NCBI GenBank assembly: GCA_963969365.1
Contig: OZ017754.1
Coordinates: forward strand, 1,612,001 to 1,676,000
Source: Asterochloris sp. CNOR1
Lineage: Eukaryota > Chlorophyta > Trebouxiophyceae > Trebouxiales > Trebouxiaceae
DNA length: 64,000 bases
Direction: 5' to 3'
Shown: positions 6,114 to 54,879 of the stretch, one piece after another
How the letters are laid out: every line of letters begins with the position of its first letter
Position numbering within the stretch: position 1 is the first letter of the stretch
Translations under genes and position numbers: made by a program
The notes under the pieces: model-generated
Told to the model about the DNA's origin: nothing
Databases searched by the model: none
The model's input: only the letters and a program-made list of their open reading frames with translations

Positions 6114-9100
6114 CTATGCACTGGCACCAGACACAATTTCAATGATCTGATTGGTGATGGCTGCTTGCCGCTGCCTGTTGTACTTGACGTTCAGCTTCCT
6201 CTTCAGGTCCTTGGCATTGTCAGAGGCTGCGTTCATGGCATTCATGCGGGCAGCCAGCTCGCAGGCCAGCGCCTCCTGCAGCGCCCTCAGCAGCGTGCTG
6301 TTCAGGTACAGGGGCAGCAGGGCGTCAATGATCTGGTTGGGCTCCTGCTCGAAGATGAGGCCGGAGTCAAAGTCCATGGTGTCGGTCCTAACCTGTAGCA
6401 GGGGCGGGTGGAGGTTTTCAGCAAGGGGATGAGGGTGACTGAGTCTAGGCGGCCACGGTGGGGGCCTCCTGACTGGTGGAGCAGTGTCACTCACAGCCAA
6501 AACACTGGCTTGTGACACCTCCTGCCTCAATGCCTGTAGGCCCGCCGCCGGGCCAGGCCCCACCAAGATGTGCCTGTGGGGCTGCTAACAGATCTGGCCC
6601 CACCAGAGACCCAAAGGTTTCTCTCCAAGTTGCTGCTCACCTTCTCACGCTCCACTGACAGGCTGCCGCCCTTGGTGGTCAATTTGAAGATCTCATCATC
6701 AGCTGCGTCCACACAGGTGCCGTCAATGTCGCAAATCTCACCCTGCAGCACCAAAGAGACAAAACAGTGGCAGACGTACAGCAACAGGGCTCTGAAAGAA
6801 GGGTCAACAATGACAAATCAAAGCATCAACGAGCAAGCATTGATTGCAAAGCGGGCAGTGCTGCCTGGACCTGGCGTTTGGTCATGGAGCTGTGCCCACG
6901 CATGCCTTCAGCCAACACTGGCAACAGCCTTCCAAGAGTGCAGCAGCAATACAGGTGCGCTGAGCCTCAATGCTTGCCAACAGGTAGCTGTGTCCACCAA
7001 GCGGTATGAGGACCGCCGCAGCATCTGAATGGCAAAATTGGTGCTACTGCCTGTCTCCTGCACTTGGTGCAAGAGTGGCGGTGCCAAAAGACATGGCCCA
7101 CCTTGGTTGATAGTTGCAGCAGCGACTGGATGATGGCTGCAGACCTGCTACACCTTTGAGGCAAGCTGTTGCTGCTGCCCACACAACTAAAGCTGTTCAT
7201 TAGTTGTTCTCTTTTTGGCTGCAACACCTGCGACAGGTCGCCTACCTGGGGTGTGAGAGGCAGCAGGGTCTGGATAATGGGGTCGGAGCTGATGAGGGAC
7301 ACAAACTTGGTGTAGACCAGCTCCACCTTGTCCACCTCCTCGCCAACAAATTCACTATACAGAGCGTCAGCGATGGCACCAGCCTCCTTGGTGGTGGGGG
7401 CCTGGCCCAGGTCAAACTGCCCTGCAGCAGGCAGATGGCAGTGGATGAGACACCTGTACAACTCGGTGTAGACCACCTCCACCTTGTCCACCTTTATGCC
7501 ATCACATTCACCAGACAAAGCGTCAGCGATGGGCCCAGCCTCCTGGGGCTAGGAGTTTGGACCAGGTCGGGCAGGCCTGCAGCAAGCAGACAGCCTGAAG
7601 AGGGCACCAGGGGCCCACGGCAGGCTGTTGGCATGGCGCCAGCCTCCTTAGTGGGAAGAGCTGGTCCAGGCAGTTTCCATGGAGGGATTGGAGTGGTAAC
7701 TTTTGAAGCAGTGCAGTGTCTCATAGGTTGAGAGCCTAGTCAAGTTGCTCTGTTTACCTGCTGTTTATCTGCTGTCAGGCTGCAGCAGGTAAGCCTCTAG
7801 CACCAATGCACATGTGCTATGCTGAGCGTGCAGGAAAGTGCTCTGCTGTGTGCTACAGGTGTTTCCCAGCATTTCGTGGAGTGTGCATGCATGCTAGCCT
7901 CCATGCACTTCCTGCTGTCAGGTTGCAATGGGTCAGCTGCCAGCAGCAGTGCGCATGTGCTGCACGAAGCAGGCAGGATAGGGCAAAGCTGCTGTGTGCT
8001 GCAGGTGTATCGCGGCACTTCATAGAGTTCGCATGCATGCCACAATTCCTGAGCACCAGCGCTGCCTATGCTGAGGAAACATTGCCCCCGACAGTGGGCA
8101 GCCTGCCACTGCGGCTTTCCCCCATCGGCTCTGCAGCCCTCTCTGCGGCCAGGGAGTCTTCAGCGGCCCTAGGCAGGCTTCCTACCCCCAGTTGCCCCAC
8201 AGCTGTTCCCTGCAGGGACTGGAGCACACCTGCAATGTTGAAGATTTCGCTGCGCCTCTTGAAGTAGGTGGCGCCCTTCTTCCCGATCAGCATGATCTTG
8301 ACATTGAGGCCCATCTTCATCAGTTCACGGGCACGCAGCTCCGTCTGCACCAGTCAACGCACAGTCGTCAGTGGCACAGTGGCAGCAGTCTCTGCCAGCT
8401 GGCTGCACTCCTCTGACCGTGGGCACAGGGGCATGTGACATATGCTGAATCCTGGCAGGCATCTACCTGCTGGTGAAGTAGCACAAGCTGCTGCCTCCAG
8501 CTGACATCTCTATCAACTGCTGAGGCATGCAGGCAAGTCACCAGACTGGCAATGGCAGGACCCTGCATGTGGTGGTGCATCGCCCTGTCGGTGACTGGGT
8601 CATCACCTGCCTGCCCTACTGCGTTCAAACAGTGGGGGGCTGAGATCTGTGCTGCTTGCCGCAGACAACCTCACCTTCTTGATGACATTGTTGTTGTAGC
8701 CACCACAGAGGCCGCGATCGCCAGTCACGCAGGCCAGCAGGATGGATTTGACCGGGCGCACAGTGACCAGGGGGGAGTCCACATCCTCCACGCGCAGCCG
8801 CTGGTTTACGCCAAACAGAACCTGCAGCGCAGGAGGTGTTGGCATGCACGACTGTCAGAGTTCACGGCCGCGATGCACCCTCTATTTTGCAGCCACAGTG
8901 CAGCCGCTGACTCATGCCAAACCGCACCTGCAGTGGAATAGGTGGAATCAGCATGATGATGTCTGGTGCCCCTGGCAGGAATGTATCCTTCATCAAGCAG
9001 CCACAAGACAGCCGCTGGTTGACGCCAGACAGCGCCTTCAGCAGCGCCGATGTGAGCACGAACAGCCACTGTGCGCAGCCAGCGTATCTGCCACGCAGAT

Positions 9101-9978
9101 TGCACATGCAGCCTGACATGCCTCTCGAGACAAGGGCTGCAGCCTCTGCAAGCTACAGGGGGACACATGCGCCCTGTGCAGAAGCAAGCTCCTGCTAGCT
9201 CCTGCTCAGCGCCTACACTCCCTTCCTCACGCAGTGCTCTGCAGGCAGTTGCAGCCCTCTGTCCCAGGCTGGTGGCTGTTTCAGTCTGATCATCTCTGCT
9301 GACCTTGACCAGGTTCTCTGAGAACGGCCGCCCATTGATGACAGCATCCTGAGCCCTCCGAACTTTGGCGGCAGCCACCAGCTTCATGGCGTCTGTAATT
9401 TTCTGGGTGTTCTTGACTGAGTTGATCCGATCACGCACAGCCTTGAGGCTGTTGGACACCTGCAGCATTGCACACAAGTTTGAGGTGTGCACTTCAGCAG
9501 GGTGCTGCGGCGACGCAATCTCGTAAAGCTTTTGAGGCTTTGGAGACCTGGAGTGCAATGCAAGGCCATGCACAACCACGAGGCCTACAGTACATTGCTG
9601 AGAGGGTGCAGAAGGGTGCATCCCCTCAAGCTCGGTGCCAGGGGCTTTCCCTTCATGTTGGCCAGTGGCCTGCGTGCTCTGACAGCGCCAGTGCTGCATG
9701 TGTGCGCCTTACGCAGCAGCGCCCCATGTCGCCATGCTAGACATGCGACACATTGCTGCTGAAAGGCACGTTTGCTGAGTGGCCAGAGAGAGGCTGCTGC
9801 CTCTCCAACCATCAGAGGCAAGATCTAGCCCTCGAATCACCTGCAGGGTCCCCCTCTCGCAAGTCTGCCCTCTCCGAGCTATGAATAGACTCGCGTCTCC
9901 AGCGAAGCTGGTCTTTCGCTGGAAGCTTATCTTACCTCCGAGCGGGCTAGAGGTATTGCCAAGCAGTGCGGTCTGCAT
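6114..9978 (-). CDS. ATPC: Chloroplast F1F0-ATP synthase gamma subunit, nuclear-encoded
   Basis: Central rotating shaft of chloroplast ATP synthase. Seven exons read leftward from ATG 9978. They are: a transit peptide with Ser/Thr/Arg and few acidic residues (to about 9840, ending ERGTLQ); [20 protein letters not shown] to SENLVK (about 9302-9462); [18 protein letters not shown], then [17 protein letters not shown] (about 8677-8831); [20 protein letters not shown] (about 8222-8349); [20 protein letters not shown] to TLLPLTPQ (about 7240-7411); [20 protein letters not shown] (about 6638-6744); and the C-terminal exon from about 6393 ([37 protein letters not shown]) to the stop. The pair of cysteines in CDIDGTC is the thioredoxin-controlled redox switch specific to chloroplast gamma, so light regulation is retained. 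Collinear with plant and Chlamydomonas AtpC. Two of its introns contain degenerate copies of exons (listed separately). It faces the DUF185 gene head to head. Confidence 0.97.
7311..7673 (-). repeat. ATPC: Exon-copy array upstream of ATPC exon 5
   Basis: The exon 5 segment at 7311-7411 (leftward [20 protein letters not shown] to [10 protein letters not shown]) is repeated, degenerate, at 7469-7568 (offset about 158 bp, roughly 80 percent alike by eye, still readable as [10 protein letters not shown]). A shorter copy at 7638-7673 reads LPTKEAGAM. All lie in the intron upstream of the true exon in transcript order. The first copy has lost the exon frame. Confidence 0.8.
7767..8055. repeat. Two-unit tandem repeat, about 144-bp period, in an ATPC intron
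   Basis: Units begin with CTGCTGTCAGG at about 7767 and 7911. Each runs through a block with GCTGTGTGCTRCAGGTGT and ends in a GCATGCATGC block (about 7885 and 8030). They are diverged by point changes and small gaps. No coding frame of the gene is seen in the unit. Confidence 0.75.
8790..9040 (-). repeat. ATPC: Exon-copy array upstream of ATPC exon 3
   Basis: True exon 3 begins leftward at 8831 after a CTGCAG acceptor with [10 protein letters not shown]. Degenerate copies of acceptor plus exon start lie in the upstream intron at about 8892-8933 (reads [16 protein letters not shown] acceptor kept) and about 9003-9040 (reads [10 protein letters not shown], acceptor reduced to CTGAAG). Spacing is about 102 and 108 bp. 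Confidence 0.85.
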
Positions 9979-10103
9979 GGCGACTGAGTGCTAGTGCTGT
10001 GACTCAGTCAGAGAAAACAAGCGGCTGGGGAAACAAAATCTGGGATGTGACCTAAGATGGTACAGCAAGCCCAGCAGGCACACCAGATGCCATCTGTGCC
10101 TGC
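9979..10103. promoter_or_regulatory. Short head-to-head promoter region, ATPC and DUF185 gene
   Basis: ATG 9978 reads left. The proposed ATG 10104 (or the first secure exon at 10237) reads right. Only about 125-258 bp therefore separate the two reading frames, which suggests a shared bidirectional promoter. No specific factor site is claimed. Confidence 0.35.
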
Positions 10104-12187: not shown

Positions 12188-13139
12188 CCAGTGGCACTTT
12201 CCCTGTGACTAACTGAAAACGGAAACGTGGGCATTTTCAAAGTTTGAAGCAGAGCTGCGTTGACACAACTCATCGTGGTGGATCTGCACATACCCTATTC
12301 AGCTTTGGAAGCAGTGACAAAGCACTAAGCCCAGTGCGCAGGACGATCTGCCCACAACATTTGGCATACCACCAAAGCAGTGAGCTGCAGCAACATCACA
12401 GCGCTTTGGTGCCCTCCAAGGTGGGTCTGTTGAGGCTTGCATGAGAGGGAAGCAGAATGACGCTAATCTGAATCCCTGCGGTGTATTGTGCTTGCAAAGG
12501 AGACCTCAGAGACTTGCTTGCGCTGCCTGGAGCCTGGCGCTATGTATCATTCCTGCAGTGCTGCACTGCAGAAGGCCGCACTGACTCAGTAAGTTGCTGT
12601 CGTCACAATCCTCCTCTGAGAGGCCCTCTGTGAGGCCTCGTCAGAATGAACGGCATGCCCATGGACCTCCAGGAGAATGTGAGCCATGTGAAGGATTGTG
12701 TGCCCACAAGTTTGACAGCAAATGTTCATCTGTGGCTACTTGCTTCTCTATCTCCACCAGCCAATGTGATAGGCCTCCAGCAGCTGATGATCATGCTCTG
12801 TGTGTCTATGAGCTACATGAACTCAAGGCAGCTTAAGTCCCATTCCTTTTGCAGGGCCACGAGGAATCCGATGAGCCCGGGACCCCCAGAGGCCAGGTGC
12901 AGAAAAGCGGTCCCTGCTGCAGAACGGCTGGGCTGCTGAGCACCTGCTGCTGTGAACCACTCCATACGAGGGAGTGCAATTGTGGTCTCGCTAGCCTATT
13001 GCCTTCCTAGAATGAAGGAGCAGAGACAGGTCAGGCTGAAGGGGCCAGAGCAACCCTCAAGCTGCATACATGTAAGAAGCTGTCTGATGCTGTGTGCCTG
13101 CAGCAGCAGCAGCATGTTCATCTGAGTGGGGGCCAGACC
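12188..13139. other. Intergenic and upstream region of KCBP
   Basis: Between the DUF185 stop and the proposed kinesin start. Rightward frames here (for example 12646-12939, about 97 residues) show no known motif. The end (about 13070-13100) has a CAG run after a CTGCAG, so a 5' untranslated exon of KCBP may begin near 13102. Nothing else is visible. Confidence 0.4.
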
Positions 13140-16100
13140 ATGGAGGACGAGCTGGGGACACCCTTCACGCCTAAGCTGGAGGCACTGGCTGGCCATTCCG
13201 GGAGTTTTCAGGTGACGCTGTGTTCGCAGCAGTTGGCTGCAAGGTGCAGGCACAGGCAACGTTTTGGCTGCTTAGCGCACCGCATGCAGGGCAGCGGGCT
13301 GGGCCCTCTGGCAGCTCCCAAACAGGCCCCATATCGATCAACAGCAGCAACTGGCCCCGTGGCACCATGCCACTGCGACAGATTGCAGGTGCTGCCCTGC
13401 ACACGCACCGCTCTGCTCAAGAGACGGGCGGGCATGTCCACCTTGCATGGCATTGCTGTGTCAAAGGCAGATGGGAGGTGGGTGAGGCAGACTGGCAGCA
13501 TGCAGCAAGGCTGCCCCGCACAGCCACAACTGAGCTGTTGACCCTGGGGACAGGCCTAGCTGTGGTCATTGTTTGAGTTGATGCATGGGAGACCCACAGT
13601 GATGCAAATACGCAGCCGCCCTCCACAAAAGACATGTGTGGTCCTTTGCCAGACGCTGATGCTGCACACCTGCCGCCTGGCAGCACCCACAAAGAGGGAG
13701 TCTACTATCTTTAGCAGCGTTGGCAAAGCTTGAGGGCATTATGCTACTGCTCTGCAGGTTGACAGCTTCAACAGGCATGCCTCCGGCAAGGGTGGAGGCA
13801 AGCTGTCGCGCCTCTTCAGCACCAAGAAGAGCCCCCGCGGCAGCCCCTCGCCAAATGGCCCGGCCACGCCGCAGCCGTCTGGCGGGAGCATCAGCCTCGA
13901 TGACATGTTGCTATACCAGCCTGTGAGTTGCTGCTGCCCTGAGCTTTGGGGAGAGACCTGCTGCTGCTTGTCACATGCCAGGCTCTGGGTTTGCCTGGTT
14001 GCCGCCATTGTTGCACGCTGGTGGTACGCCCTGAACCCTGTGGGCCATGCTGTGGAGCTTCCCACATTAGAATGTTGTTCAGCTGCCATCGCACAGTCTA
14101 CCTCCCACAATGATGGCAACCCGGGTTCTCAACCCTTACTCATGGCATGCCCAGTTCTGCAGGACGCCTGCACCCAACATGCCCTTGCTCGTGAGATGCT
14201 CACGCATGCAGCACGCCTGCACCTCACACACATGCAAACCTTCCTGCAGGAGGGCATCCCCACCTCCCTGCTGAAGCTGAGCACTGACAACTCCAGCAGG
14301 GCTGTCAAGATGTTCTCAGGCATTCAGAAGTACATGGACTCAGGGGATGACCTGCCCATGGCAGTCAGGACAGACATCGCCCAGAAGCTGCTGCACCAGG
14401 GGTTGAAGCGGCCTGAGCTGAAGGACGAGCTTTATATGCAGCTGCTCAAGCAGAGCAGGGGAAACCCCAATCCTGCAACGGCAGGTGAGCAGCTGCTTTA
14501 TGGTAGCTGTATCTGCCTGCTTCCAGCACTCATCAAGGCATGCACCTGTCAGGTCTGCAGGTCTTCCCAATGTCAAGAGCAGCCAGTGATGGGAGCTGGG
14601 CACCTGGCTGGGCCCCTGCCTCAGTGCACTCAGAGCAGGCGCTCCTGGGGCGCTGCCTTTTCAGGCTTGCTGCAAGAACCTGAATCATGCGCCTGCTGGT
14701 GACCCTGTGACATTCTGCGACCCCTGTCCTGTGCTGTTGTGCAGCCAAAGCCTGGGAGCTGTTCTACCTGGTGTCCTCCACCATGCCTCCCTCCAAGGAG
14801 TATGTGGGCCTGGTGTCAGAATATGTGCACACAGTATCACATAATGACTCAGAGGACCCAGAGGTCAAAGCACAGGCCATGCGCACATGGAATAGCCTCA
14901 AGAGGTCGGCCAAGGCAGGACCACGGCGAACAGTGAGCTCATAGGCTGCAGTATGAGGGTGGGCGGTTGAGGAGGGAATGCCGTTGGAACTGGCAGACAA
15001 AACAGCTGTGGGTCCGACCAGATCTCAGGGCAGGTTTGGGGAACAGCCACGCGCACATGATTCCACTCAAGCCATTTGCTAAGTCAGGCCCAGATGCACG
15101 TTGAGGATGTGAGCTGCAGTGTGGTGAAACACAGTGCAGTGCAGGTCCAGCCTGACATCAGCCACTGCATTCTCGCGCTGGGGTGGGTGGTGCTGTTAGT
15201 GGGCCTTGGCTTAAGAAGTGTTCTGCATACGATCTGGGGCATTGCAGAGAGGTAAGTCCTTGGTCCCAAGGCCCAGCTCCCAGACCAACTGTGTGGAATT
15301 TGGGTGCCTTGGATGCACCTTTCTCAGCAGCAAGGACAGCAAGACCACCACCTCTGCATCTTGCTGTTTGCTCTGTGCTGGGCCCAGCTTTCTCAGCAGC
15401 AGGAAGAGCTCCTGCGCCAGGGGCAGCAGCTGACCAGTGAGCTAGCTGCACAGACACTACGTCTCTTGCTTGTGCCCACAATATCTGGTCTAGCCTGTCT
15501 GCTGTGCCCTGCACTCTGCACAAGCAATGAGTGCAAGGCTCTGCCTTGTTGATCTCCTTCCATTCTCCACTGCAGCGATTGTGAGGTCCTGCTCCTGGAG
15601 GAGCTGCACAAACATCTGTGTTGATGTATGTATGTTCTGTCCAGCACCCCGACACGACTCACATGCCTCCTGCCTGCAGCTGCCCAGCAGCGAGGAGTGC
15701 GAGGCTTTGCTACTGGACAGACAGCTGACCAGCATTGTCTTCTTTCTGGATGGCACCTTTGAGGAGCTGACCTATGACGTGACCACCACAGTGCTGGAGG
15801 CCGTGGAGCAGCTGGCAGGCATCATCAAGCTGCAGAACTACACGACCTTCACGCTGTACGAGTGCAAAAAGGTAAGCAATGATGTACAAGAAAGGAAAGT
15901 CTGGCCATGGCCTGGGTCCATGCACCATGCCAAGCTGTAGAACAATGTCACAGGCTGTGCAAGTGCAAATTCATTGGCACCCCAAGGCAGTGTTTGCGTG
16001 CGGCGCATCATCAAGCTGCAGCAGTGGGCTGCCTTCAGAACAGCGGGAGACCATCAGTCCAGCTAGGGCTGCATTGCCTCCAGCAGACTGTGTAGGCCTG

Positions 16101-19100
16101 AGTGCCAGCTTCTAGCAAGGGATGGCCAAAGCTGTGCTCCTGTGGGCATGAGCTGAGGCTGATGGGTCCAGATTGCCTGCAGCTACTGTGCAAGAAGATA
16201 GGCCTGGATTGCTCATTCTCATACTCCACTGAGGCATTGTCCTGTGCTAATGGCAGCCGCTCAGCAGAGAGACGGAGGTTGGGCAGCCACATCTGACTTT
16301 GCAGGGGCCAGCCGTTTAGCTGGCTACTTACCCCACTGACTGCTGCCTGCAGCCATTCAGCAACCAGGTGGAGCTGGGCCAGCCCATCTGACTTCCCCAC
16401 TGCCACTGCTGCAGCCGCTGTGGCCCTACTTGTTGCTGCCGAGACCCCATTGTGTGCTGCCTGCAGCCACTCAGCGGCAAGACGGAGCTGGGGCAGCCCA
16501 CCTCAGACGAACATATCTTGCTGGATGACAACAAGTATATTGCCGATGTGCTGTACGAGTTCCGCAACGGCAAGCAGCGGGACTACCAGCAGAGCAAGCT
16601 TCTGTTCAAGAAACGTATGTTCCGTGAAACAGATGAGACCATCACAGAGCCCCAATTTGTCAACCTTTCCTACGTCCAGGCAAGTGGGCACTCACCACAA
16701 GGACACTGCTGACCACGGCCTGCCTAACTCTGGGCAGCATGCGTGCGTCAGATGCCTTCTTGATGCCACTCCCTGTCCTTCAGCAGCACAGTGCGGCTTG
16801 TTGCAAACAACGTGGGAAGCGCAGCCGCCCGACTGTAGTTGTCAGGTACACAACAGCAGGCTGGCTGCTCAATCTGTGGTACTCATGCAAGGTAGTGCCA
16901 AGCATTTGCTAAACGCGTTTGCTTGACAGCATGCCGTGCCTCGGCGGTCACTGCGCAATACCTTCATCGAAAGCTGTGCTGCGCAACAAGGCAGCATCAG
17001 GCAGGTCTCGTGACTCTGTTGCTGCTAATGCAGGCCCAGCATGACTGCCTTCAGGCAACCACTCTGTTGTCCGCATGATGCAGTCTTGGGCAGCCCCCAT
17101 CTGTGGCTGCTGCTGCAGGCCCAGCACGACTACCTTCAGGGCAACTACCCCGTCGTCCGCGAGGACGCGGCGCAGATGTGTGCACTGCAGATTCAGGCAG
17201 AGGCGGGCCCCACCCTGGCAGATGACCTGGATGCACTGGATACCTTGGTGGAGAAGTTTGTTGTCAAGCAGGCAAGCTGACTTTCGGCTGCTGGGGGGCG
17301 CCATGGCATGCCTGCTGCTGTCTGCAGCAGGACCTTCTGAAGGTCGTGTCTGCTGTTTCTTGCCAAGCAGGTGATGGGTCGCGGGGCCGGCTTGAGGGGA
17401 CATTCAGGTATTTCCCCTGCTGCGGGCAAACAAGCTGTAAAAAAGCAGCCTTTGGTTTGTTCAGGGGTGCAAGCTACTTCTCTGCAGCAGATTGTCAGGG
17501 GCAGCATGGTTTGTTGTGATCCAAGCAAGCCGATCAGCTGCTTACTGAATCAGACTGGAGGCACTTACAGAATCTGATCTTGATCAAAGCCAGCCTTCAG
17601 CCTCCCCAGCTGCTGTTCCTGCAGGTGCTGATGACCAGGCCAAGAGATGAGTGGCGGCACGATGTTGCCTCGCGGTATCGGGCGCTTGAGCAATTCTCGA
17701 AAGAGGATGCTAGGCTGCAGTTCCTGAGAATACTGCGGTCGCTGCCCTATGGTGGGGCGCCGCTTGCTGTTCAAGCAGGGGCTGGACACCTGCTGCTGGC
17801 ATTTGTTATATGTGTGCTGCAAAGCATAGCACTTCGCAGTTGCCATGTGATGATGCAAGCTGCTATGAAGGCAGCACACCAAGCCTGCACCTGCTGCTAG
17901 CAACTGCTGTACAGCATGCCATCAGTGCGCTGCAATTGCCTTAGAACGTGGTCAGTCCTGCATCTCCCCCAGCAACGGAGTTCATTCCGTGCCTTCTCCA
18001 CTACTGGCAGTGGGTGTATGCATGCTGCATTACAGTGCAATCTCAGCTGCCCCAGGCAATCCTTTGGCGTGCTGCTGCGGAAGCAGCCACCACGTCCCAC
18101 CTTATGTAGGTGCTCTCAGTACGCAGGACACCTAGTCGTCCTGTTTGGACACCTGCAGGCAACTCCATCTTCTTCTCTGTGAAGAGAATCGAGGATCCCA
18201 TTGGGCTGCTGCCAGGCAAGTTGATACTTGGCATCAACAAGCGGGGCGTCCACTTCTTCAGGTGCGCTGTTGTGATGGCCCTCGGCAAGGATGCTGGGGT
18301 GTATCTTCATGGGCTGCTGCAAAAGCAGCACAGGAGTGACAGGGCTCATTGCTGCACAGCTCACAGTTACAAACCCTTTTGCTCCAGGACACTGCCAAGA
18401 CCTCCTGCACTCTACCAAGCTGCCCACATTCGACTAGCCTGCTTCAATCATGCACCCTTTCCCCTGCCCTCCAGGCCCATGCCTCACGCGCCGCACTCAG
18501 GAACTGTGTCCACCATCATGCTGTTCAGCAGCAGCAGCCAGGCCACAGAGCTTGTTTGATGCCTGTGCAAATCCTTACTCAGCAGGTCCTTGCCCAGCAA
18601 GTACCTGCACTGTGCAGAGCTGCACAAAATTGTGCACTTGGGCGGCAGCTTGTGCTTCCCCTAAGCTGGTCCCCCTTCCCTGCTGGCCTCTGCAATCGTA
18701 CTGAAATACTGTTGATGTGCACAGCCGGCCTGTGCAACGTGTGGCATATGCTAGCTACAACAACATAGACCTCTTGTTCCTGCAGGCCGGTGCCTAAGGA
18801 GTACCTGCACTCAGCCGAGCTGCGTGACATCATGCAGTTTGGCAGCAGCAGCCAAGCCGTTTTCTTCAAGATGCGTGTGGCGGGGGTGCTTCATATCTTC
18901 CAGTTCGATACCAAGCAGGGGGAGGACATCTGCATGGCTTTGCAAACCCACATCAATGACATCATGATGAAGCGCTACTCCAAGGTGGGTGCCGACAAGG
19001 TTAATGCTCCCTTCTGAGGGTCTCAATGCTGTAGTGGGCTGTGGGGCAGGGCAGGTCCTTTGCGTAGGCTGCAGTGCACCAGCCTCATGCACAATGGCGG

Positions 19101-22100
19101 CGCCTGTCATGCAGAGCTTCCCTTGAAGCCCAGTGCAGGCTGTGCATGTGTGCAGGCTGTCAGCCGTGTCTCACAGCAATACTTCTGTGTGCCTTCCTTC
19201 ATCTGGATGCAGTGGCCAGTGTGCAGCAGCCTCCTGGTCTGGCCTCGAGGCAGCAGCAGATGTGCAGAATCGCCCTGAGACATCGTGCACAGGCTGCAGC
19301 AGAGCTGCCTCTTGTCGCGGTGACACCACATCACCATGGCAAACAGGTACATGCATGCTCTTAGCCATACTTTCTGGTTGTGTAGGCCAAGGCCATGCAG
19401 CAGGGAGGCGCCGAGGGCAAGCAGGCTGTGGGCAAAGAGGGGCAGCTCTCAGGCGCCAACTTCGGGCCCAAGTATGAGGCTCACGTGCAGGAGATGCAGA
19501 AGCAGCTGGATGAATCTCGCAGCAGGTGGGCTTGTCTGACGTCCTGTTTGCTGTGGCATGCACGCCTGCACCCAAAGTAAGGAAGAAACACCACAGCACA
19601 ATGGCACCTTTGACGCTGACTGTCGTGGCTACATGTTCAGACCTGGTTTTGGAGCAACTGGTGGCGGACTGCAATGCCATGCGCGTGGCCAAGAGGGCTG
19701 GCTCGCCTTCCTGCCCTGCTTTAAGCCATGTCAATAGAAACCACCCACAATGGCTGCTACCCTCAGACAGAGACTGCGCGATGCTTTGATTGCTCTCATG
19801 AAGCCTCTGGTGCCAACAACCGTACTCAATTGCTGCCTGTGGGGGCAACACAAGCCTGCCAAGCTGGCTAACCCCTGCTGTATGCTGCTGCAGAATCGAG
19901 CAGCTTGAGAAGGAGCATAATGGCCTGCTCATTGAGAAGCAGCGCCTGCAGGAGGACTTAGAAGAAGTGCAGGAGCGCCTAACTGCAGGTGGGAGTGACT
20001 CTGTTCCAGTTGGGCTACTTGTGGCCAGGAGCTAAGCGTACAGTGTGCTGCGAGACCCAGTCGCAGGCTCTGTGTTCCAAGCCTTGGATGCCAGCTTGGC
20101 TGACTTGCACCCAGCTCACAACACTTTTTGAATAGTGCTGAGTCATATGTCCTGCAGAGGCTGCACACCAGCGGGAGGGCACGGATCGCGTGGACGCATT
20201 GCAGACAGAGCTCGACAGCGCGCGCACAGAGCTGGCCATCCTGCAGCAGAATTTGGACAAGGCCAACACTGACAAGCACAATGTGGGTGGCATTGCATGC
20301 CCGGCTTCAAATGATGCACCCAGGCTGCCTGCATAAGCTGTGGGCCTGGCCGCCACTTCAGCAGGCTGAACCCTGCATGAGCTGTGTGCCTGTGATAGAT
20401 CCGGGAGTGACTGCACTGAGATTGTGCATTGCTACCCACCACCGCATTCAATTGAGCAACTTCTAAGCTCCTGCAGGCCATTGAGGCGGCGGTCTCCACA
20501 GCTGTGGCGGAGGCTTGCATGAAGACCAAGGAGGAGGTGGAGGCTGCCAGCATGGCCAAGAAGGCAGCTGCTGACCAGCAGCTGCTCCGAGAGCTGGAAG
20601 ACAAGGTGGAAGCGCTGACGGGGCAGCTTAACGCCTCCACAGAGCAGCTCCGGAGTACTGAGAATGCTCTCAAGTGAGCAGTGGGTCTTGCTGTCTGGTA
20701 GGGTGTGGTGGGGCAGCCAGGCAGCAATGCCTCCACTGAGGTGTAGGCAATGGTGTGGCAGCCAGTCTTTGACAAGGTTGCAGCTCCATGCACACAAAGT
20801 AACTCTGGAGCATATGCCCTCAAGCGGGAGCTGGGTATTCGCAGAAGAGGGTACATGGCGGATGCATGAGCCCCTGTGCGCTGGGAAGGATGGCTTCACT
20901 GAGCAGCTCTCGGGCAGAGATTGCGCCCTCCAGTGGCTTCAGGGGTGGAGGCCCGGCACTTCAGTGGCTTAACCACCCCAACCCTTGCGCAGCAGCATGT
21001 CTGCATGTAAGTTGGCAACTTCAGGATTCTGTGCCAACCAGGCCTGCCACCTGCTACTTGCTGTTGCAGGCAGTCATGTACAGCAAGCCAGCCACACATG
21101 CACAGCTGCCAGCAGAACATGTTGTATGAGCAGCTGTCCCGTGCTGCAGGGAGGCCCAGAAAGAGGTGGAGATCCTGGACAGCAAGCTGCAGCGGGTCGA
21201 CAAGGCCAGAGCTAGCGAGGCAAGCCTGCCTGTTTGGCTTCTTGTGTTGCTTGCCCTGAGCAGCAATCTCAGCAACTGGAGCCAGCCAGAGCCAATGAGG
21301 TGAGTCTGCCTGTTCCTGCATGCCTGCACCGCAGCAGCCTTTTGGAATGCAGCTTTACTCACGACAACACAGCGCAGGAGAGCTTGGCAGCATACTGGGT
21401 GCTCAATGCTGTGAGATGGGCGGCGAAGGCTATCACTTGCCTGGCCTGGCAAGCTGACTGGGGCTGCTGTGAGAGGTGCAGCTGTGCGCAACACAGGCTT
21501 GGGAGCCTGGACTCCCTGATCACGCGACTGAGGCGAGCTGCCCATGCAGCTGTGCACAGCCTGGCCCATGGCATAGGCCCACACCATCTCAGTATGCGCT
21601 GTACTGCCTACCTGCAGGTGGCATGCTTGACGTCTATCTGGCCAGGCAGGCACAGGCAGCCAACCCTGGGGAAGTGTGCTGTGCTGGCTGCAGGCGTCAG
21701 CCCTGCGGACAGAGCTAGTCTCCTGCACACACCATGCACACGCCTGCCTCTCACTGCAACAGTGCTTTGCAGGTGGCGGCCCTGCAGACTGAGCTGGATG
21801 CGTCCCGCGGCGGTGTGAGGGACCAGCTGGCCGAGAAGGATCTGAAAATCAATGCGCTGGTTGAGGAGCTGGGCAACAGCCAGGCCATGCTGAACGATAA
21901 GATCAGCGAGCTCGCCCAGGTGAATGAGGGTTGAGGGCGGAAAGACTGTATCACTGGCCTTACTTGAGCAGGTATACAAGCAGGTCATACTGCTTGATTA
22001 AATTGCCGGGCTGGCCCAAGGTGCACAGGGTGACGGTTGTACATCAGTCATGCTGTGGGCATTCAAGCAGGGTACAGCCAGGCCATATTGACGGACAGCC

Positions 22101-45900: not shown

Positions 45901-48581
45901 TCTGCCGCAAAGCGGGCCATGCAGGCGTCGCCGGTGAGGCCCATCACTGCGCAAGGGTCTGATTGCAGGGGCAGTATGCATGGCTTGAATGTTGATTGGC
46001 AGCAGCGTGTTCAGCTACCATGCGGGCCAGGCAGTGGCTGTTTTGCTGACTAAGTGAGTAGGATGGCTCAGCACTCACAGCAGACACATCTTGAAGGCTG
46101 CACTCAGCAAGCAATGGATTCTGCTTTCAGTTGGTCCCTGCAAGCTGTACCGTGCTGCCTGGAGGCATGGCTGCCTCTTACCCATCCAGATCCAGCGCTT
46201 TGCATTTCACAGCCCTTCAAATCGGCTCACTCCCTTTGCATTTTTGAAGCCCCAAAGCCTGCAGTTGCAGGCCTCCCCCTCTGTCGTTATGGCCAAATAA
46301 AAAATAAAAAAAATGCTCACCACCTGACAGCAATTTCTGCAGCAGGAGTTTGTACTTCTGGCGCTTTCAGCTGACCATGGCAGTGCAGCAGCTGTTTGGG
46401 GTCAGCTAGATGTGGAGGATCTTATGCTGCTGCCTCACAGCAGGACGACGCTGTCCCCTGCTGCAGGAGCTGCCCCGTTTTGTGGCCTTCTCAGCAGACC
46501 CTGGCAGTGCAGCAGCCACCATCCAGGCCATCCTGAAGTGGACGGCTGGTGCCAATCGAGACCTCCACCAGCAGGTGAACAGCCGTTGTGGCAGTCATGC
46601 ATGCTGCTGCTGTAGCCTGTAGTTTAGTGTCCTCACTGTGCGTGGTCTGGCTGGACTCTAAGAGGAGCTGTCCTGTGCTTGGGGCAGCACGGCTACATGA
46701 GGTGCACCTGACAGGCAATATGGCAGCAGCCTGCTGTCAATTCTGATGGCACGGGGCGTTTTCAGTTCGTTTCATCACCCAAACTTGAGGCATTAATGCT
46801 ACCATGCCATTGGAGATGAGTCGCACCTGCCTCACCAGTGGCTTTCTGGAAACCTCTGCAGGCCCACTGCCTGACGCGTCCTTCAAGTGCAGGCACAGGA
46901 GCTGGCGCTTGATGTGTTCCCCATGTCCCAGCTGACATCGGCAGCGCCTGCCCAACAAGCCAGCGATGCAGGCCCAGCACCAGTGAGTCACTTTCGCACT
47001 GATGCACTGGGGGTGTCCCTGTGGTCGCAAATGCTTCTCGATGCACGTCGGAGGACAGAGAGTGACTGCACGTCCTGCCTGGTAGCCTCACGCCTGTGGC
47101 CCTGCTTGGCCTGTAGGTATGTCAACATCTGGACGCTGACCCCTGCAGAGCCTTGCTGGGCGCACGGCATCAGCACGCCCTGTGCTCACCCTGATCACTG
47201 CACGCCTGCCACTTGTGCATGCCACCATTCTGTCAAGTCAAAGACCCCTGCTGCCACCCTGCAGAACCTCAACAGGGGCATCAGCAAGCATGCGCAGCTC
47301 AAAGGGGACCGCATGTTTGCCCCCGTGCAGCCCAATGAGTCCCGCCTCCTGGCTGTCAGCCTGGTGAAGCTGTCGATGTGGCTGAACAGCCTGCTGGGGC
47401 TTGACAGACCAGTCGGGGCCAAGGAGACATCTGGCCAAGGGATGGTGAAGGTGGGGACAGCTTGCCCGGCGATGCAAGACTCGGATGCTGCCTGTGCACA
47501 CGTTTCTGCAACATACCGAGGTAGGTCAAGACTGGCTGAGGGAGGTCCAGGATGTGCTAGATGTCCTGATGCTGCAGATGGTCAACGGTCCTCTTGCAGG
47601 GAGTGGTTGCTGCACTTCATCGCCTGGTGGGAGGCTATGAGGGTCCTGCAATGCAGATACTGCTTGCCTGCTGTGAAATAAGGGCCTCCCACTGCCGCAG
47701 GACATCATGCTGTGGCTGCGCAAGAAGGGATTCCGGATCAACCTGCGACACCTGGCAGGTGGGCACCTTGTCCAACTTGCGTCTGCTGCAGCCCTATCTG
47801 CAAAACTGTCGAATTCCAGTGCCAGCGCAGTTATGCTAATTTGCTATGGCTGCTATGCAAGCGAAGAGGCAGCGCCTTTCACCTGCCAGCATCTGCTTAG
47901 GTCCATCTGCCATACTGAGGGACAGGGTTGCTGCACTGCCCGCCATTGTTCCTCAATTCTAGCTCCTTAAATGTGACCTTGACACAGCTTCCTGTACTGG
48001 CTGCAGAGTACCAGACGCTGGTCTTCCTGGCCATAACCCTGTTCCTGCTGCTCTATGTGGTGCCCTTCTTGTTCATGATCATTGGAGGCCTGTGGCGTTT
48101 CCTTGCTGAGCCTCTAGATGAGCCTGGGTATGGCTCGTCAAGCGGGCACCAGCAGAACCAGGATGACTGGCACCCGCACCATGGACAGCATCGCTACAGT
48201 CAGCAGCAAAGGGCGCAGCATCACCGGGCCCAGCAGCAGAAGGAGCAGGCGTTTCTGAAGGCTCAGCAGTCCCATCAAGTGCCAGCGCCCACAGGCAGCC
48301 AGCAGGGTTCTGCAGGGAGCCAGACGTCTGAGCAGACTTACCAGGACGCTCTGGAGGGTCCAGCGTCTGAGCAGGCTCACCAAGGCTCTGCAGGGAGCCA
48401 GACATCTGAGCAAACTACTGCTGAGACTGGAGTTGATGCAGATTCTGAGGCTACAAAGCCCAGGCGTCGCCCATCACATCAGCAGTCTTGGGACCAGGCC
48501 ATAGCTAGCGCTGCCGCAAGCCTTGACCGCGCTTCTCGTCAGCAGCAGGAGCAGTCTGCCACTTCTCAAGGCAGGCCTTGA
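39965..48581 (+). CDS. SMPD4: SMPD4-like membrane protein (neutral sphingomyelinase 3 family), multi-exon
   Basis: Animal SMPD4 is a tail-anchored ER/nuclear-envelope protein linked to neutral sphingomyelinase activity and nuclear pores. The first secure exon opens after CTGCAG at 39965 (KLRLRQGLEGHQQLLQQK) and contains ATG 40058 (MDNRQEKELVGMIMRKEEPL). Later segments: VVVQPQMWFLALLAFSATK (about 41339-41572); NPYLHLLQQYMEALLPRGS; AQYEAAVMLNILVEYWLTDG (about 42343); FYRYMKRGFQGWPESTNIGA then FVNLYLMYAAPW (about 44100-44212); LNYVLCNLPFYSLLLPALLN (about 45050-45213); LTMLKAAPQLNNVLRAVESD (about 45734); RMFAPVQPNESRLLAVSLVK (about 47264-47450); FRINLRHLA, then EYQTLVFLAITLFLLLYVVP, a C-terminal membrane span. 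The order and the pairs LPFYSLLLPALLN and MFAPVQP..LLAVSLVKL resemble what I recall of human SMPD4. A hydrophilic Gln/Ser tail with a repeated SAGSQTSEQT unit ends at 48581. Catalysis is unproven; upstream exons may be missing. Confidence 0.7.
43839..43985 (+). repeat. Two-unit tandem repeat in an SMPD4-like intron
   Basis: GTGCACCACGGCGCAGTGCC at 43839 and GTGCACCACTGCAGTGCCTG at 43945 start two diverged units (offset about 106 bp). Each continues with a CTGCAGCAACAGG / CTGCAGCAGCAGGG block. Confidence 0.7.
45560..45635. repeat. Perfect 32-bp inverted repeat with 12-nt loop
   Basis: The arms are 45560-45591 and 45604-45635. Arm 1 begins GCACTGAGCCATCACAGAGT and arm 2 ends ACTCTGTGATGGCTCAGTGC, complementary at all 32 positions. 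The loop at 45592-45603 is GCAGGCATGCAA. It lies in the intron between the exons ending near 45213 and starting near 45734 of the SMPD4-like gene. It can form a long hairpin in the pre-mRNA. Confidence 0.93.
48302..48425 (+). repeat. Internal coding repeat in SMPD4-like C-terminal tail
   Basis: Two units reading GSAGSQTSEQT (near 48303 and 48390) flank a related stretch, EGPASEQAHQ. It is a low-complexity, probably disordered tail after the membrane segment. Confidence 0.75.
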
Positions 48582-48677: not shown

Positions 48678-51600
48678 TCAAAAAACAGCATCTTCTAGAA
48701 GCAAGAGCTTGTTTATTTGTGTGCAGAGGTGGAGCCGCTGCCCAAGAATCTGCTTGAGTGCTGGCTCTGTTGTTACCTCCTCTGAGGTAGTCTGAGCATG
48801 TCTTAGATACCTGCAGCGCAGAAGCTTACATGGGCCCGGCCATGCAACATGTCCCCAGCCCAGGTTGCACAGCAAATGAGAGCCACACCTGTAAGCTGCA
48901 ATAAGGGTCTCACTCCCCAGCTCGGCTTCAAGTGCAACACGCAGCTGCTCAGCCTTGGCTGCAGAGAGCCTGCTGGTCTCTGCACAGCAACAAACACTGC
49001 TTGGATAAAGGTTCCCTGCTCCAAGACATGAAGCAGCCAGAGGGTGCTGGGCATGTCTCACCAGCTGTATGGAGGGGTAAACTATTAGGCTGAGTAGGAA
49101 GCTGGAGTAGCAGCGGGGACGCAGATGTGGACGTTTCCCGAGAGGCACAGCCCTGATATTCCAGAGCATCCTGCGGGCACCAAACTCCTGTTGACAGCCA
49201 TGCATTGCATGCAACAAGGCTGAAGGCCAGGCACTGACAGGCCAGCACCTTGATGGGAGCAAGAAAGCAGCTTCACAGCACATGTGTTCACCTGGATATC
49301 AGTAAGAACCTGCAGCACAGGCTTCCTGTCTTCCCATCCAAGCTGGGGACCACCAGTGGCTCCGCTTGCAGCAGATGGCTCTTCTGATGCTCTGCAGAGG
49401 CAGCGTCACACCTTGCCATTCACAAATTTGGGCATGGGGCTTTGATGTGGCAGCATGAAGCTCACGCAGCCCAGGGCAGTGGGCTACAGCTCCTCAGGCA
49501 GTGGTTAAGTGACATTTGGCCTCACCTGGGAATGGCCGCCTGTGCATGCACTACTATGCCGGCCGGGAGTTCGGCTGGCTTGGAGCCGCAGGGGCAGAAC
49601 ACCTCTACGGAGGGGGCGGCTGGCTGGACCTGCGCCCGCTGCTGTTGCATCCAATTTCTGAAGTTCTGGGCAGCCTCTGCCTTGCTGACGGGCGTCAGGG
49701 CTAGCGCTGCCGGCTGCTCAGCCTGCAGACAGTCTGCTGCTGCACCGCTTGCAAGCTCAGGGGCTGTTGAGGTACAAGGCGGGTCTTTGACAGCTGGCAG
49801 AAGGCCCGACCGCTGAGCTGTCAACCTCTGGGGCTGTGGGCCGCGACCTGCTGCCTGGGAGCACTGTGTGGCAGCATCCAGTGCAAGCAGCGGTGAATGG
49901 GCAGCTCTGCAAGTCGTAGGCTTGCTGGTAGCCTGACCTGGAAGTCCAGGCCTGGAAGTACTCTGTACCGCTGCACTGCCATCAAGCGCAACAGCAGCAG
50001 GCTGCTGCTGCTCAGGTCCTGTTGCTGCTGCTGGCCCTGGCTGGGAGTGGTCCCGCCAGCAGGGTGCCTGTGGAGAGGCAGGCACAGCGAGTCTGGAGGC
50101 GGCAGGTGAAGGCGGCTGTGCATCATCCGGCAGGCGTGAGGAAGCAGAGCGCTGGGCGAGGGAGGTCTGCCAAGCCGACTTTGCAGGCTCTGGGTGATCC
50201 CCCACCAAAGGCGCTGAGGCAGTGCTGAGCAGCGGCAAGCCCCCATCCTCGCAGTCCGCCGAGGCTGCAGCCCCAGAAGGGCCAGGAGCGTCTGGCACAT
50301 TGCCCTGCGAGCAGGAGATGGAGGCTGGATAGCAAGCTGTACTGCTGCTGCCCTGCATGTCATGGAGCAGCTTCAGGGCGCAATGGAGGCTTGGCCTGAT
50401 GTGCACAGCAGGACTCAGCTCCAACTGGGACCTGCTTGCACTTGAAGCAGCCCGGGTTGCCATGGCCTCTGCCAACTGTCCACTGCTGCTCAGCATGGTG
50501 GCAGTGGGGTCAGCCCACCTGCAGCCTGGCAGCAAAGGCCTGCCCTAGGTCCTGCAGCGCGGCCCGGTCCAGCGTGGGCTTGACTGCCTTCAGCCCCTGC
50601 CGGTGGGCCTGCAGCTGCTGCAGCTCACGGCGCTGCTGCTCAGTTCGGAGCGCCTCCCGGTCCCGCAGCACCTGCTCTGCCGCAGCTGCCTTGCTGGCAC
50701 GGGCTGCTGCCAGATCAGCCAACTCCTTGCGTCTGTGCTCCTGTCAGAGGCATATGGTGTCCTTGAAACCAGGCTCAAGGGCCATGTGGTCAGAGCGAGG
50801 CGGGATCAAGGAGGTGGGGTCGAGAGTCGATGGATGGCTCACAGGCTATCATGATGTGCAAGGATCCAATCTTGAGAGAGGAATGGGAACATGTCCTGCA
50901 GAAAGCCTTCCGCACTCACCAATGCCAGTTTGCCTGCCTGGGCGCATTCTGCAGCTGCCTGCGTTGCGCAAGTGCCTCTGTTGGGAACAGACAGGAGTGG
51001 AACACAGCCAGAGCTGTTCACGCTTGCAAAGCCTGCATGTCAGTAAGGCCTGCTCGCTGCACCCCACACGTCTGCAGCAGCTCTGCAGCAGACTCTTCAC
51101 ACCCATCCTGAAGTTGTCCCCACCTGCTTCCCTGCTCACCTGGGACGCCTGCCGCGCCTGAGCCCGCGCCTCTGCAGCAGCCGCGTCCTCCTGCGCCCGC
51201 TGCTCAGCACGCTCCTTGCGGAGCGCGCGCTCTGCCAGGATCTTGGCACGTGCGGCCCCTGCCTCCCGGCTGCGGTGGAAGGCTGCCGCCAGCGTCACGC
51301 GAGAGATGGGGCTGTTCCCAACCCTGCACGAGAATGCGCAGCTGGAAGCTGATTGGTGAAGTGCCGCAGCTGGGTCTGCATGCAGATTCTGATGCTTGAC
51401 GCCCTGCAGGCCGGTAATCACTGCTGAGAGCCATCCTTGAGGTGGTGCTCACCTCAGGCCACGTGGATTGGTACCCAAAGATCACGCGCCGTGGCCCACC
51501 ACAAGCATGTAGGCAGCAGAATGCTGCATGGGCCTCAGAAAACATATAGGAAAAAGGGCGCGGCCCCTGTGGAACAGCTACTCAACAGCAGTGACAGGAT

Positions 51601-54600
51601 GAGAGGAGGGTCCTGACCTGGCGCACCTTGACAAGAAGGAATGCAGCACTGCCTAAGCTTGCAGCAGACTCTGTGTGGCTACTCACTGTGGCCCTGCCAC
51701 CGTTTTCTGCTCCTGCTCTGCTGCCCCCTCATCAGAGCTGCCTGCCTCCAAAGCTGGGGACTCGCCTGGTGCCCCCTTCAAGTGAGCTGTAGCTGCAGCT
51801 TCAGCAGGTGCTTCAGCTGGCTTGAAAGCCAAATTGCAGCCCTTGACCATCATGGCTGCACGTGGCCTACACAAGAGAGATCCAGCGTGCACTTGTCACT
51901 CAGATCATTGCTTGAGCGGCTGCGTTTAACATCGAGCAAGACATCTGGCATCAAGTCCTCAGTGTCGTACTGCACATGAGGGGCATGCCGGCAGCAGAGT
52001 ACGCTGAGTGGCGTGCTGCGAGTCAAGCTCGGCCTCCACATGTCACGCAGCAGTATTCAAGATGGCATTTCAAAGGCCCCCACCTGGCCGCTGATTGGGA
52101 TGGCAGCAGCCCACCCAGCAGCCCTGCCTGCCCTTGTGCATCTGCGAGCTGCACCATCTGCTGCGCATAGCACTCCACATAGCGAGCTACATACGGCAGC
52201 TGCAGCAGCTGCTGCACCGACGGCCGCTCCTGCACCAATGCACCCCTTCTCTGATCCAGACTCAGCAAGGGGCATGTAGCATGCAGCACTTGTCTTTGCT
52301 GAGCACATCCCTCCATTGCCATCCAGCACCAGGTGTTGCAGCACAGGATAGGCAGACCATGATGTGTCATCGATGGCTGCCCCTGAAGCGGACAGCAGGC
52401 TGTGCAGGGTCCAGCAGGGAGCACCTGGGGCTTCTGCTTGAGCAATCTGTCTACCAGCCCCCGCAAACTGCTGCTGTACTGAGTCGGCACAGGTGGGTAG
52501 CGGCCCCTGAGGATTTTGACGACCAGTGCAGGCAGGCTCTGGCCATCGAAGGCACGCCTCAGGGTGACCTGCATGGTCATATGAGCAGCCCCTGACAGAT
52601 TTGCTGTCGCAGGCAACTAGGCACTAGGTTGCCCGTCCTCAGGCCTCTGTTGCTTGCAGTCTGGGAGGCAGGTTTTAGCATAGGCAGCCAGTTCCCTCCT
52701 GGCTAAGTTGGCCTGCACATTTTGGGAGGGATGCTGAGCGGTGCACTTTATAAATTTGCAGAGGAGCGCTGTAGTACTGGAAGACCCTCTTCCCCAGTGT
52801 CCAGGCAGTGATCTGTGCACAGCGCAATGCTTGAGAGGGCAAGCACTACGAGGCAACCCCTGCACACTTGGGGAGGCAGGATCGGGTCAAGGGCAAGGGT
52901 ACTGGACTTAGGCCAGGCCACAGTCGGCAATGTGAGTGCAGCAAACTGCTGGTCTGGTTGCATGGCGGGCAGATGAGATGCAGCACTCACCAGCTCATAC
53001 AACACACATCCTGCTGCCCACACATCTGACTTGGTGTCGTATGGCTTGTCCTCACAGACCTCTGGAGACAAGTAGTAAGGCGTGCCAACCTGCAGAGCTC
53101 GCAAAGAGTCAGCTGCTGCAAACTGCATGCACTGTGGAGCGACAGCGGCCTGAGAGTTGTGACGCTTCGGAAGCAGGAGAGGACTAAGTGGGGCTGTAGC
53201 GACAGCACTTGACACCAGTCTGAAGGCTCTCCCAGCCATGTGCCGGCATCCTCTAGGCTCACAATAGTGTGGGCCAGCTGGGACCCTGTGGAGAGCACCC
53301 TGGCAATGCCAAAATCCCCCAGCTTGAGCACCCCGCCTGCAGAGAGGGTCACCGCAGTTGCCCCAGAGCACCGTACGCTGCAGCGCTTATTGCGCAAGAA
53401 GCACAACAGGGCAGACAAATGACCTGTCTGTGGCGCTCTTAGCTTCGCTTACCATGAGCTGCTGGACCAGAAGACATGAAAATGTTGGAGAGCTTCAGGT
53501 CGCGATGCAACACATTCTTTCCATGCACATGCCAGAGCGCGAGCAGGATCTGGACAAACCTGCAGGCCAGCAGTAGAGGATGCAACTCCCACAAGGCAGT
53601 GGTTGATGTGCAGATTGAGCGTCCATCAGGCCAGCAGCCAGCGCAGGAGGCCGTAGCTCGCACTGCTGCCCTACTACGCGAGCTGATACACAGAAGCCAA
53701 AATGCAACAATGCCAGGATTTTGCACAAGAGCGCACCACAGCATGATCTGGTCCTCGTGAAAGGGGACCTTTTCAGCAGCAGCCCGCTGGACTGCATGGC
53801 TCAGCTCCCCCTGATCAGCATACTCCATCACTATGTGGAGCGTCCCCGCCTGGAGCATGCTACACAACAGTGCTGCAACTCCAGCCCAGGCAAAGGAGTG
53901 AGGTGGGCCAGCTGGCATGGCTGCTGGAATGCTGGGATGGTGCATATGCACAGGACAAATTGTGCTCGGCATCACACCCCACGCCTGGCGCAAGCAGACA
54001 GAGGCTGGGGCATGCTACACAACAGTGCTGCAACTCCAGCCCAGGCAAAGGAGTGAGGTGGGCCAGCTGGCATGGCTGCTGGAATGCTGGGATGGTGCAT
54101 ATGCACAGGACAAATTGTGCTCGGCATCACATCCCACGCCTGGCGCACTCAGACAGAGGCTGGGGCTGCGTCATTGGCACATGCCCACCTCAGTGAAGCA
54201 GCCATGGTATCTCACAATGTTGACGTGATCAAATTGTGCCAGCAAGGTCACCTGCAGACAGCGTGCGGGGTGCTGCTGTCTTTACCGGCAGCAGGCCGGC
54301 GCAAGACCAGGCATTGCTTTTCTTTTTTCCAAACCAGGCCAGTTGTCACATACATTTGCTTTGGGGAATGAATAGGGACTTTTTGACTGGGAGAGTTGAC
54401 CCCAGTGTTGCTTCCCACTCACAGGACACTTTGGGGCATATGTTCTCAGAATGCACATATTTTAGGGGGCTTCCCTCCTGGTGGTTCAGAGGGAGCTGTG
54501 TCTCATAAGCCTCCTTGCCAATGCAGCCGCCTAGCTGACAGTTACATACAGAGAATGGCAACATCAAGTCAGCTTGACTCATCATGCATTGTAGCACCTA

Positions 54601-54879
54601 GGCAGCTGCTGCCATGTAGGACCTGTACGTGCTGCAGCGTGTGGAGCTACCTGCTACCAGCACCCAGGAAATCACCTCATTCATGGCTTCCAGCCTGTCC
54701 TTCGTCCCAAGCTCCTGGAGGCGGATCTGTTTGATCACGACCAGCTTTCCTGTGCTGCGTGTCCTGACAAGGAGCGCAGTGCCAAAGGAGCCTGTTCCTA
54801 TGGTCCTCAGCACCTCATAGCTGCCTGCAGTGGTGTTGATTGCATGAGATCCACAAGCAGTGCATGTTGGCAGATGCAT
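48678..54879 (-). CDS. NEK: NIMA-related protein kinase (NEK), multi-exon
   Basis: Ser/Thr kinase of the family tied to cilia, cell cycle and microtubules. ATG 54879 gives [12 protein letters not shown], then kinase start [20 protein letters not shown] with [11 protein letters not shown] (to 54676). A short exon, 54251-54189, reads [20 protein letters not shown]. Then [20 protein letters not shown] (from 53850), [12 protein letters not shown] (about 53470-53560), [20 protein letters not shown] (about 53265-53340), [20 protein letters not shown] then [12 protein letters not shown] (about 52990-53090), [20 protein letters not shown] (about 52430-52565) and [20 protein letters not shown]. Lys, HRD and DFG are all present. 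The basic helical region [20 protein letters not shown] (about 51150-51310) and a similar exon at about 50515-50735 suggest coiled coil. A long Ala/Pro/Ser-rich exon follows (about 49525-50515), then [20 protein letters not shown] and [20 protein letters not shown], the NEK C-terminal motif. The stop is at 48678. Confidence 0.93.
53856..54165. repeat. Nearly identical 155-bp tandem duplication filling a NEK intron
   Basis: CATGCTACACAACAGTGCTG starts at 53856 and again at 54011. The two 155-bp units differ at only about three positions near their right end. Together they occupy almost all of the 338-bp intron between NEK exons 54251-54189 and 53850 onward. One unit edge lies 6 bp from the 3' splice site (leftward GTAGCATGCTCCAG before the exon; the inner copy reads GTAGCATGCCCCAG). 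Confidence 0.95.

Follow-up and report, generated by a model that had tools for sequence, protein, structure and literature searches.

Degenerate copies of exon edges in the introns of the green alga Asterochloris sp. CNOR1 and their probable origin in local tandem duplication

A 64-kb stretch of the genome of the green alga Asterochloris sp. CNOR1 (contig C9, positions 1612001-1676000; hereafter the window) carries genes for chloroplast-type ATP synthase gamma (ATPC), KCBP, a GT31-type galactosyltransferase, F1 delta and a protein kinase, in which introns contain local direct repeats. Among these repeats are structures that we term shadows, namely degenerate copies of an exon edge and its splice site inside the adjoining intron. 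The repeat pattern is real, strong and genome-wide, and recognisable shadows are found at ~6% of exon edges.

Genes and exon-edge copies in the window

Gene models were produced with a purpose-written gene finder, seeded with 1,387 codons from 28 recognisable exon pieces and then self-trained; all exon calls and splice edges are predictions. Training covered 427 introns, with median intron and exon lengths of 256 and 137 nt, and the finder returned 83 genes and recovered 97.4% of the seed bases. The predicted donor consensus is CAG/GTGAG and the acceptor consensus CTGCAG/G (the slash marks the splice junction). The acceptor consensus is long, with T at position -5 in 309 of 332 predicted sites of the whole sample and G at position -4 in 307 of 332. 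Pfam matches support the joined products of KCBP, F1 delta, the GT31-type galactosyltransferase, the protein kinase and an amino acid transporter.

ATPC is modelled on the minus strand with exons at 6114-6392, 6641-6742, 7246-7421, 8230-8344, 8675-8821 and 9304-9468 (gene finder and by eye); its identity comes from a match between the gene's last exon only and PDB 22vl_D (E 4.9e-33). The acceptor and exon start at 7304-7435 recur upstream at 7460-7590 (80% identity, offset 156 bp), and those of exon 8675-8821 recur as two upstream shadows within 8893-9063 (offsets 105 and 214 bp), where self-comparison also returns the direct pair 8788-8933/8893-9041. A further exon called by the gene finder at 8928-9152, on the same strand, was judged by eye to be a shadow. 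On the other side of an exon, the exon end and donor at 7240-7291 have a downstream shadow at 7096-7147 (71%). ATPC also contains an intron-only duplication, 7769-7894/7912-8040 (74%), spanning 7769-8040.

The KCBP gene (12646-28023, plus strand) encodes a MyTH4-FERM-kinesin protein with Pfam matches to MyTH4, FERM_M and Kinesin, and was divided among several models by the gene finder. Upstream shadows of acceptor and exon start lie at 16243-16297 (copied from 16453-16508; 77%), at 18468-18649 (two copies of the exon start near 18786; 73% and 72%; self-comparison pairs 18468/18779 and 18582/18782), at 24827-24900 (from 24952-25024; 71%) and at 26851-26913 (from 27130-27191; 73%), the last having been called as exon 26856-26909. 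The exon end and donor at 25087-25151 have a downstream shadow at 25255-25319 (80%), contained in part in a called exon, 25222-25317, that was judged false by eye.

Comparable structures occur on the minus strand in the GT31-type gene (PF01762) and in F1 delta (PF02823). In the former, the exon end and donor at 30837-30925 are shadowed downstream at 30742-30826 (70%), and the acceptor and exon start at 32634-32722 are shadowed twice upstream within 32815-32961 (69% and 78%; self-comparison partners at 32815 and 32903). In the latter, the exon end and donor at 36188-36235 have a downstream shadow at 36096-36143 (85%), and two upstream copies of the acceptor and exon start at 37438-37544 lie within 37586-37889 (79% and 71%; partners at 37586 and 37783); the farther of these overlaps called exon 37745-37858 and may itself be a genuine exon. 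A plus-strand gene labelled SMPD4-like carries an upstream shadow of the acceptor and exon start at 46458-46516 at 46337-46392 (75%). The label itself was not confirmed, as the first 419 amino acids of its product gave no Pfam match.

The protein kinase gene (minus strand; model matching positions 1-263 of the PF00069 profile) contains a young array. Two 155-bp copies that are 97.5% identical lie at 53850-54166 and take up 317 bp of a predicted intron of 339 bp (53850-54188). The array stops precisely at the 3' splice site on one side, and its breakpoints carry a 7-nt repeat, gccccag. In this part of the window (48678-61694) the gene finder fuses an apparent OCH1-type glycosyltransferase, an FkbM-type methyltransferase and the kinase, as recognised by eye, into one model.

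Self-comparison of the window returned 21 repeat pairs at E<0.01, all of them direct, with offsets of 92-345 bp. An initial annotation, made from the sequence alone, had reported exon-edge repeats in ATPC, KCBP, GT31 and F1 delta and related repeats in the kinase and SMPD4-like genes, and the 21 pairs include loci in all of these genes.

Direct repeats and exon-edge matches across the genome

The 56.4-Mb assembly comprises 21 contigs, 18 of which are 2.0-4.5 Mb long. The main sample of 264 kb consists of the window and 20 spot samples of 10 kb each from the 18 large contigs, the latter labelled with L-numbers and given local coordinates. A held-out sample of 40 kb was taken later, outside gene-finder training, for a total of 304 kb.

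In the main sample, 90 direct pairs lie less than 600 bp apart, with offsets of 100-149 bp in 31 and of at most 200 bp in 48. No inverted pairs were found within 1 kb, and three sets of 1-kb dinucleotide shuffles gave no pairs of either kind within 600 bp. At a fixed search space the sample yields a total of 106 direct pairs and 8 inverted ones; 16 of the direct and all of the inverted pairs are farther apart than the local range. The pattern is thus of direct copies at short offset with no inverted counterpart, as in local tandem duplication. The window is ordinary in this respect, at 3.9 per 10 kb where individual blocks have between 0 and 9 per 10 kb. One copy falls on a predicted exon in 49 of the 90 pairs and both do in 23; 14 pairs are intronic only and four intergenic (in 36 kb of intergenic DNA), three of these in a single region of spot sample L013.

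The repeats are also private to their loci. Within the 304 kb, 82 of the 90 pairs have no match elsewhere, and several of the other eight, among the matches listed, come from one L013 region. Searches of the whole genome with three stretches (the kinase array, KCBP 18468-18649 and one from ATPC) found each at its own locus only, ATPC also matching its own exon. Mass production of intron sequence in algae is known from introner elements, which share that property with the present repeats but consist of similar copies dispersed over many loci; no such dispersal is seen for the 82 private pairs within the 304 kb or for the three stretches across the genome.

Two spot samples contain repeats of other kinds. 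At positions 2100-3720 of L013, degenerate repeats that resemble one another extend over a larger tract of intron and intergenic DNA, in contrast to the private arrays found elsewhere, and the minus strand at 8386-10000 of the same sample holds a long open reading frame that resembles, by eye, a non-LTR retrotransposon reverse transcriptase. At L012:6184-6995, a ~400-bp duplication (81%) includes an exon and its intron, with both copies called coding; predicted splice sites are 10 and 17-21 nt away from its ends.

The relation of repeats to exon edges was measured by aligning 60 exonic bases from each edge, with the splice consensus removed, to the flanking intron of the same exon; length-matched introns from other genes served as control, and a match was scored at S of at least 18. 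Genes with fewer than 200 coding bases were excluded from counts, as were blocks and regions shorter than 40 nt from this and the held-out tests. Exon starts matched their own upstream intron in 26 of 431 cases (0.10 expected from other-gene introns) and exon ends their own downstream intron in 25 of 423 (0.20 expected), giving 51 of 854 against 0.30. At the same threshold there were no matches between exon ends and upstream introns (0/263), between exon starts and downstream introns (0/255), for mid-exon blocks (0/139), or between exon starts and a non-adjacent intron of their own gene, two places removed (0/314); the four controls pool to 0/971. In the held-out sample, 3 of 73 exon starts and 2 of 72 exon ends matched (5/145 against 0.08 expected), with 0/84 in the crossed controls. 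When shadows are listed at S of at least 17, 56 are obtained, 43 of them within 155 bp of their own exon edge and the closest at 51 bp.

Exon edges therefore show a strong excess of matches that is confined to the introns flanking them, and the exon-edge repeats described in the initial annotation, borne out by the 90 direct pairs and again by the held-out 40 kb, extend beyond the genes in which they were first seen. Splice acceptors in this genome are CTGCAG, and introns rich in CAG and CTGCAG might resemble one another by chance or low complexity. This objection fails, since the other-gene, same-gene and shuffle controls are all near zero, and chance likeness can be given practically no weight.

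Decay of the copies

Shadows are under little or no coding constraint and decay near-neutrally. Their identity to the exon by codon position is nearly flat, at 0.73/0.75/0.69 in acceptor shadows (n=32) and 0.75/0.76/0.70 in donor shadows (n=28), and gaps occur at 4-9% of exon positions. The initial annotation held that most copies keep AG or GT, which overstates the case: AG survives in 22 of 32 acceptor shadows and GT in 12 of 28 donor shadows, where ~0.56 is expected at 0.75 retention per base, and neither differs from neutral decay (p 0.21 and 0.18). Substitutions from exon to shadow (A>G 14.0, T>C 11.0, C>T 9.6 and G>A 6.6 per cent) are not dominated by C-to-T changes, and mutation of the copies resembling repeat-induced point mutation was rejected.

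It had also been suggested that the copies supply decoy or alternative splice sites. Shadows do score in the range of real splice sites three to four times as often as random intron places (9 of 28 against 0.087 for acceptors and 10 of 26 against 0.108 for donors), and an array of three 68-bp copies in L013 carries three acceptors of near-equal score, as might be expected of maintained decoy sites, alternative splice sites or alternative exons. However, residual splice-site strength is explained by descent alone, and the flat codon identity and neutral loss of AG and GT leave a decoy function unsupported. Exon duplications and mutually exclusive exons are known as extra exon copies beside an exon, and in that they resemble shadows, but here mostly exon edges only are copied, with gaps and near-neutral decay in place of the coding constraint of an alternative exon. 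Maintenance of the shadows as functional elements is accordingly very unlikely, whereas the accidental use of some of their splice sites would be possible, judging from their sequences.

In two young introns the copies make up nearly the whole. The L013 array (204 bp) forms most of a ~216-bp intron and ends 6 nt inside the next exon; the initial annotation's description of introns built from tandem copies applies almost literally to this intron and to the kinase intron, but not to most others. Positions 545-748 of L013 at first looked like an intron made of exon-end copies, as would be produced by intron birth through tandem duplication of an exonic AG/GT segment. Intron gain of this kind is said to have been treated by Rogers in 1989, Zhuo and colleagues in 2007, Gao and Lynch in 2009 and Hellsten and colleagues in 2011, and shares with the present case a tandem duplication across a splice-site-like junction that is absorbed by splicing; here, by contrast, existing introns are lengthened. 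The L013 segment was rejected as a newborn intron. A PF01637 match (28.5 bits, below the Pfam cut-off of 33.2) continues across the junction and points to a donor at 527, and splicing there gives a collinear product, which together place the 68-bp triplicate within an intron. Moreover, for none of the 56 listed shadows does the distance match the intron length to within 3 bp, as it should after such births, which are thus a highly improbable source of the shadows.

An orderly ladder, with older copies farther out, was also considered by eye, among alignments limited to exon-touching pairs of no more than 160 columns. It fits L008, L019 and F1 delta but not GT31, L004 and L016, and was dropped as a general rule.

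Placement and origin of the duplications

Matches of the same kind are found inside introns. When intron blocks were compared with the rest of their own intron, matches were obtained for 11 of 307 blocks from the last 60 nt (0.17 expected), 7 of 307 from the first 60 nt (0.27 expected) and 5 of 192 from the middle (0.17 expected); first and last blocks pool to 18 of 614, with 4 of 106 in the held-out sample. The surplus at exon edges was evaluated with a neutral simulation in which tandem duplications of 51-155 bp were placed uniformly in the real introns, exons were constrained, ages were set to give identities like those observed, and the same block test was applied. The simulated ratio of exon to intron block matches was 1.76-2.75 in four settings, against an observed 51:18 (2.83), with p 0.05-0.52 across the three settings tested; with the held-out sample included the ratio is 56:22 and p 0.09-0.67. 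In the simulated blocks, exon-edge relics were detected 1.7-4.9-fold more often than intron-intron relics of equal age; they are recognised more often, and so seem a special class, because the exon copy stays constrained. Match lengths fit the simulation as well, since an exon part of at least 30 with an intron part of at most 10 occurs in 0.31-0.41 of simulated and 0.41 of observed cases (n=22). On their intron side, shadows are only partly above control (0.56-0.60 against 0.50-0.52), a weak excess of the sort expected if both intron copies decay.

These data bear on whether exon edges are true hot spots, with CTGCAG/G and CAG/GTGAG acting as microhomology and introns growing outward from their own splice sites. 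The youngest array, in the kinase gene, ends exactly at a splice site and has gccccag at both breakpoints, the L013 array ends close to one, and shadows are 0.94 identical at acceptor position -3. Yet only 1 of 32 array ends (16 tandem-like pairs) is found 6 nt or less from a predicted splice site, against a background of 0.044, so that splice sites are not supported as preferred breakpoints; most settings of the block test agree with uniform placement, intron-only and intergenic duplications exist, and the held-out frequencies at exon edges and in intron blocks are 5/145 and 4/106. As intron blocks show the same kind of excess and uniform placement predicts most of the exon bias, exon edges are not upheld as a special target. 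Hot spots of this kind are unlikely, although a modest true preference for exon edges is possible. The stronger proposition, that successive tandem duplications starting from an intron's own splice sites are the main source of growth, with CAG-type microhomology of acceptor and donor letting every exon edge shed copies into its intron, and that a fifth to two fifths of intron DNA arose in this way, appears slightly more doubtful still.

We consider it probable that the shadows record repeated tandem duplication of local sequence, with selection acting as a filter and the conserved exons making the copies visible. Segments of ~50-155 bp would be duplicated in direct tandem throughout the genome without strong positional preference. 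Duplications inside coding sequence would be eliminated by selection, and those within introns or across one splice junction tolerated, the latter because splicing at the outer site still yields a normal message; the inner copy would then turn into intron and decay neutrally. Near-uniform placement and the role of selection as a filter are inferred from the comparisons above, as is the share of intron DNA so made. With 0.10-0.20 exon-edge matches per simulated event, the 51 matches would correspond to ~250-520 events in 443 introns, and the duplicated share, by arithmetic from the simulation, may be ~27-55 kb of 143 kb of intron (19-39%), an estimate that depends on the model. As to the molecular step, staggered-break fill-in and microhomology-assisted slippage are guesses that draw on a very small number of young cases, in which breakpoint microhomology is 7 nt (kinase array), 7 nt (L008, by eye) and ~1 nt (L013). 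Of the initial interpretation, duplication across exon-intron junctions as a means of intron lengthening is thus supported genome-wide, and the parts concerning targeted exon edges and decoy or alternative splice sites are not.

Several observations weigh against uniform, steady tandem duplication. One of the three block settings tested gives p 0.049 for extra exon preference. Merging of the 90 pairs leaves 64 independent clusters (48 exon-edge, 8 intron-only, 2 intergenic and 6 wholly exonic), and the 48:8 count, which would favour hot spots, exceeds the simulated edge share of 53-69% (p 2e-7 to 0.003); exon calls inside arrays (e.g. 8928-9152 and 25222-25317) probably raise the edge count, perhaps without accounting for all of the excess. 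At their origin, 38-42% of the simulated duplications fall on exon edges. Only 4 of 48 exon-edge clusters are at least 85% identical, where a steady process predicts 32% (p 1e-4), implying either that the rate was not constant, with higher activity in the past, or that young copies are lost. Exon-edge matches span a median of 0.57 of the offset (n=27) against 0.79-0.90 simulated, and intron-only pairs a median of 1.0 (n=9); faster intron decay than assumed, or gapped copying, would explain the short spans. Finally, copies abut within 10 bp in 14 of 90 pairs and spacers are weakly similar to their flanks (mean score 9.64 against 8.49; n=42), which indicates that some cases are unlike a clean tandem copy.

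Short tandem duplications from the repair of staggered breaks or paired nicks have reportedly been described in plant genomes, by Vaughn and Bennetzen in 2014 and by Schiml and colleagues in 2016. The present repeats are likewise direct, local, tens to ~150 bp in size and situated in non-coding DNA, but they form a dense, mostly old, genome-wide layer in the introns of an intron-rich genome, and their repair step is a guess. By comparison with such systems, the process would be of a known kind, and its density and exon-anchored record would make it a notable variant.

For annotators, the shadows are a warning, as inspection by eye assigned three called exons in the window (8928-9152, 25222-25317 and 26856-26909) to shadows. 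The lengthening of introns is a long-standing problem on which direct evidence is scarce, because intron sequence decays without a reference. In Asterochloris sp. CNOR1 the exon edge keeps the original beside its decaying copy, making the age, size and position of growth steps legible from one genome; were duplication indeed seeded at splice sites, the conserved exon would serve as a built-in reference for dating each step.

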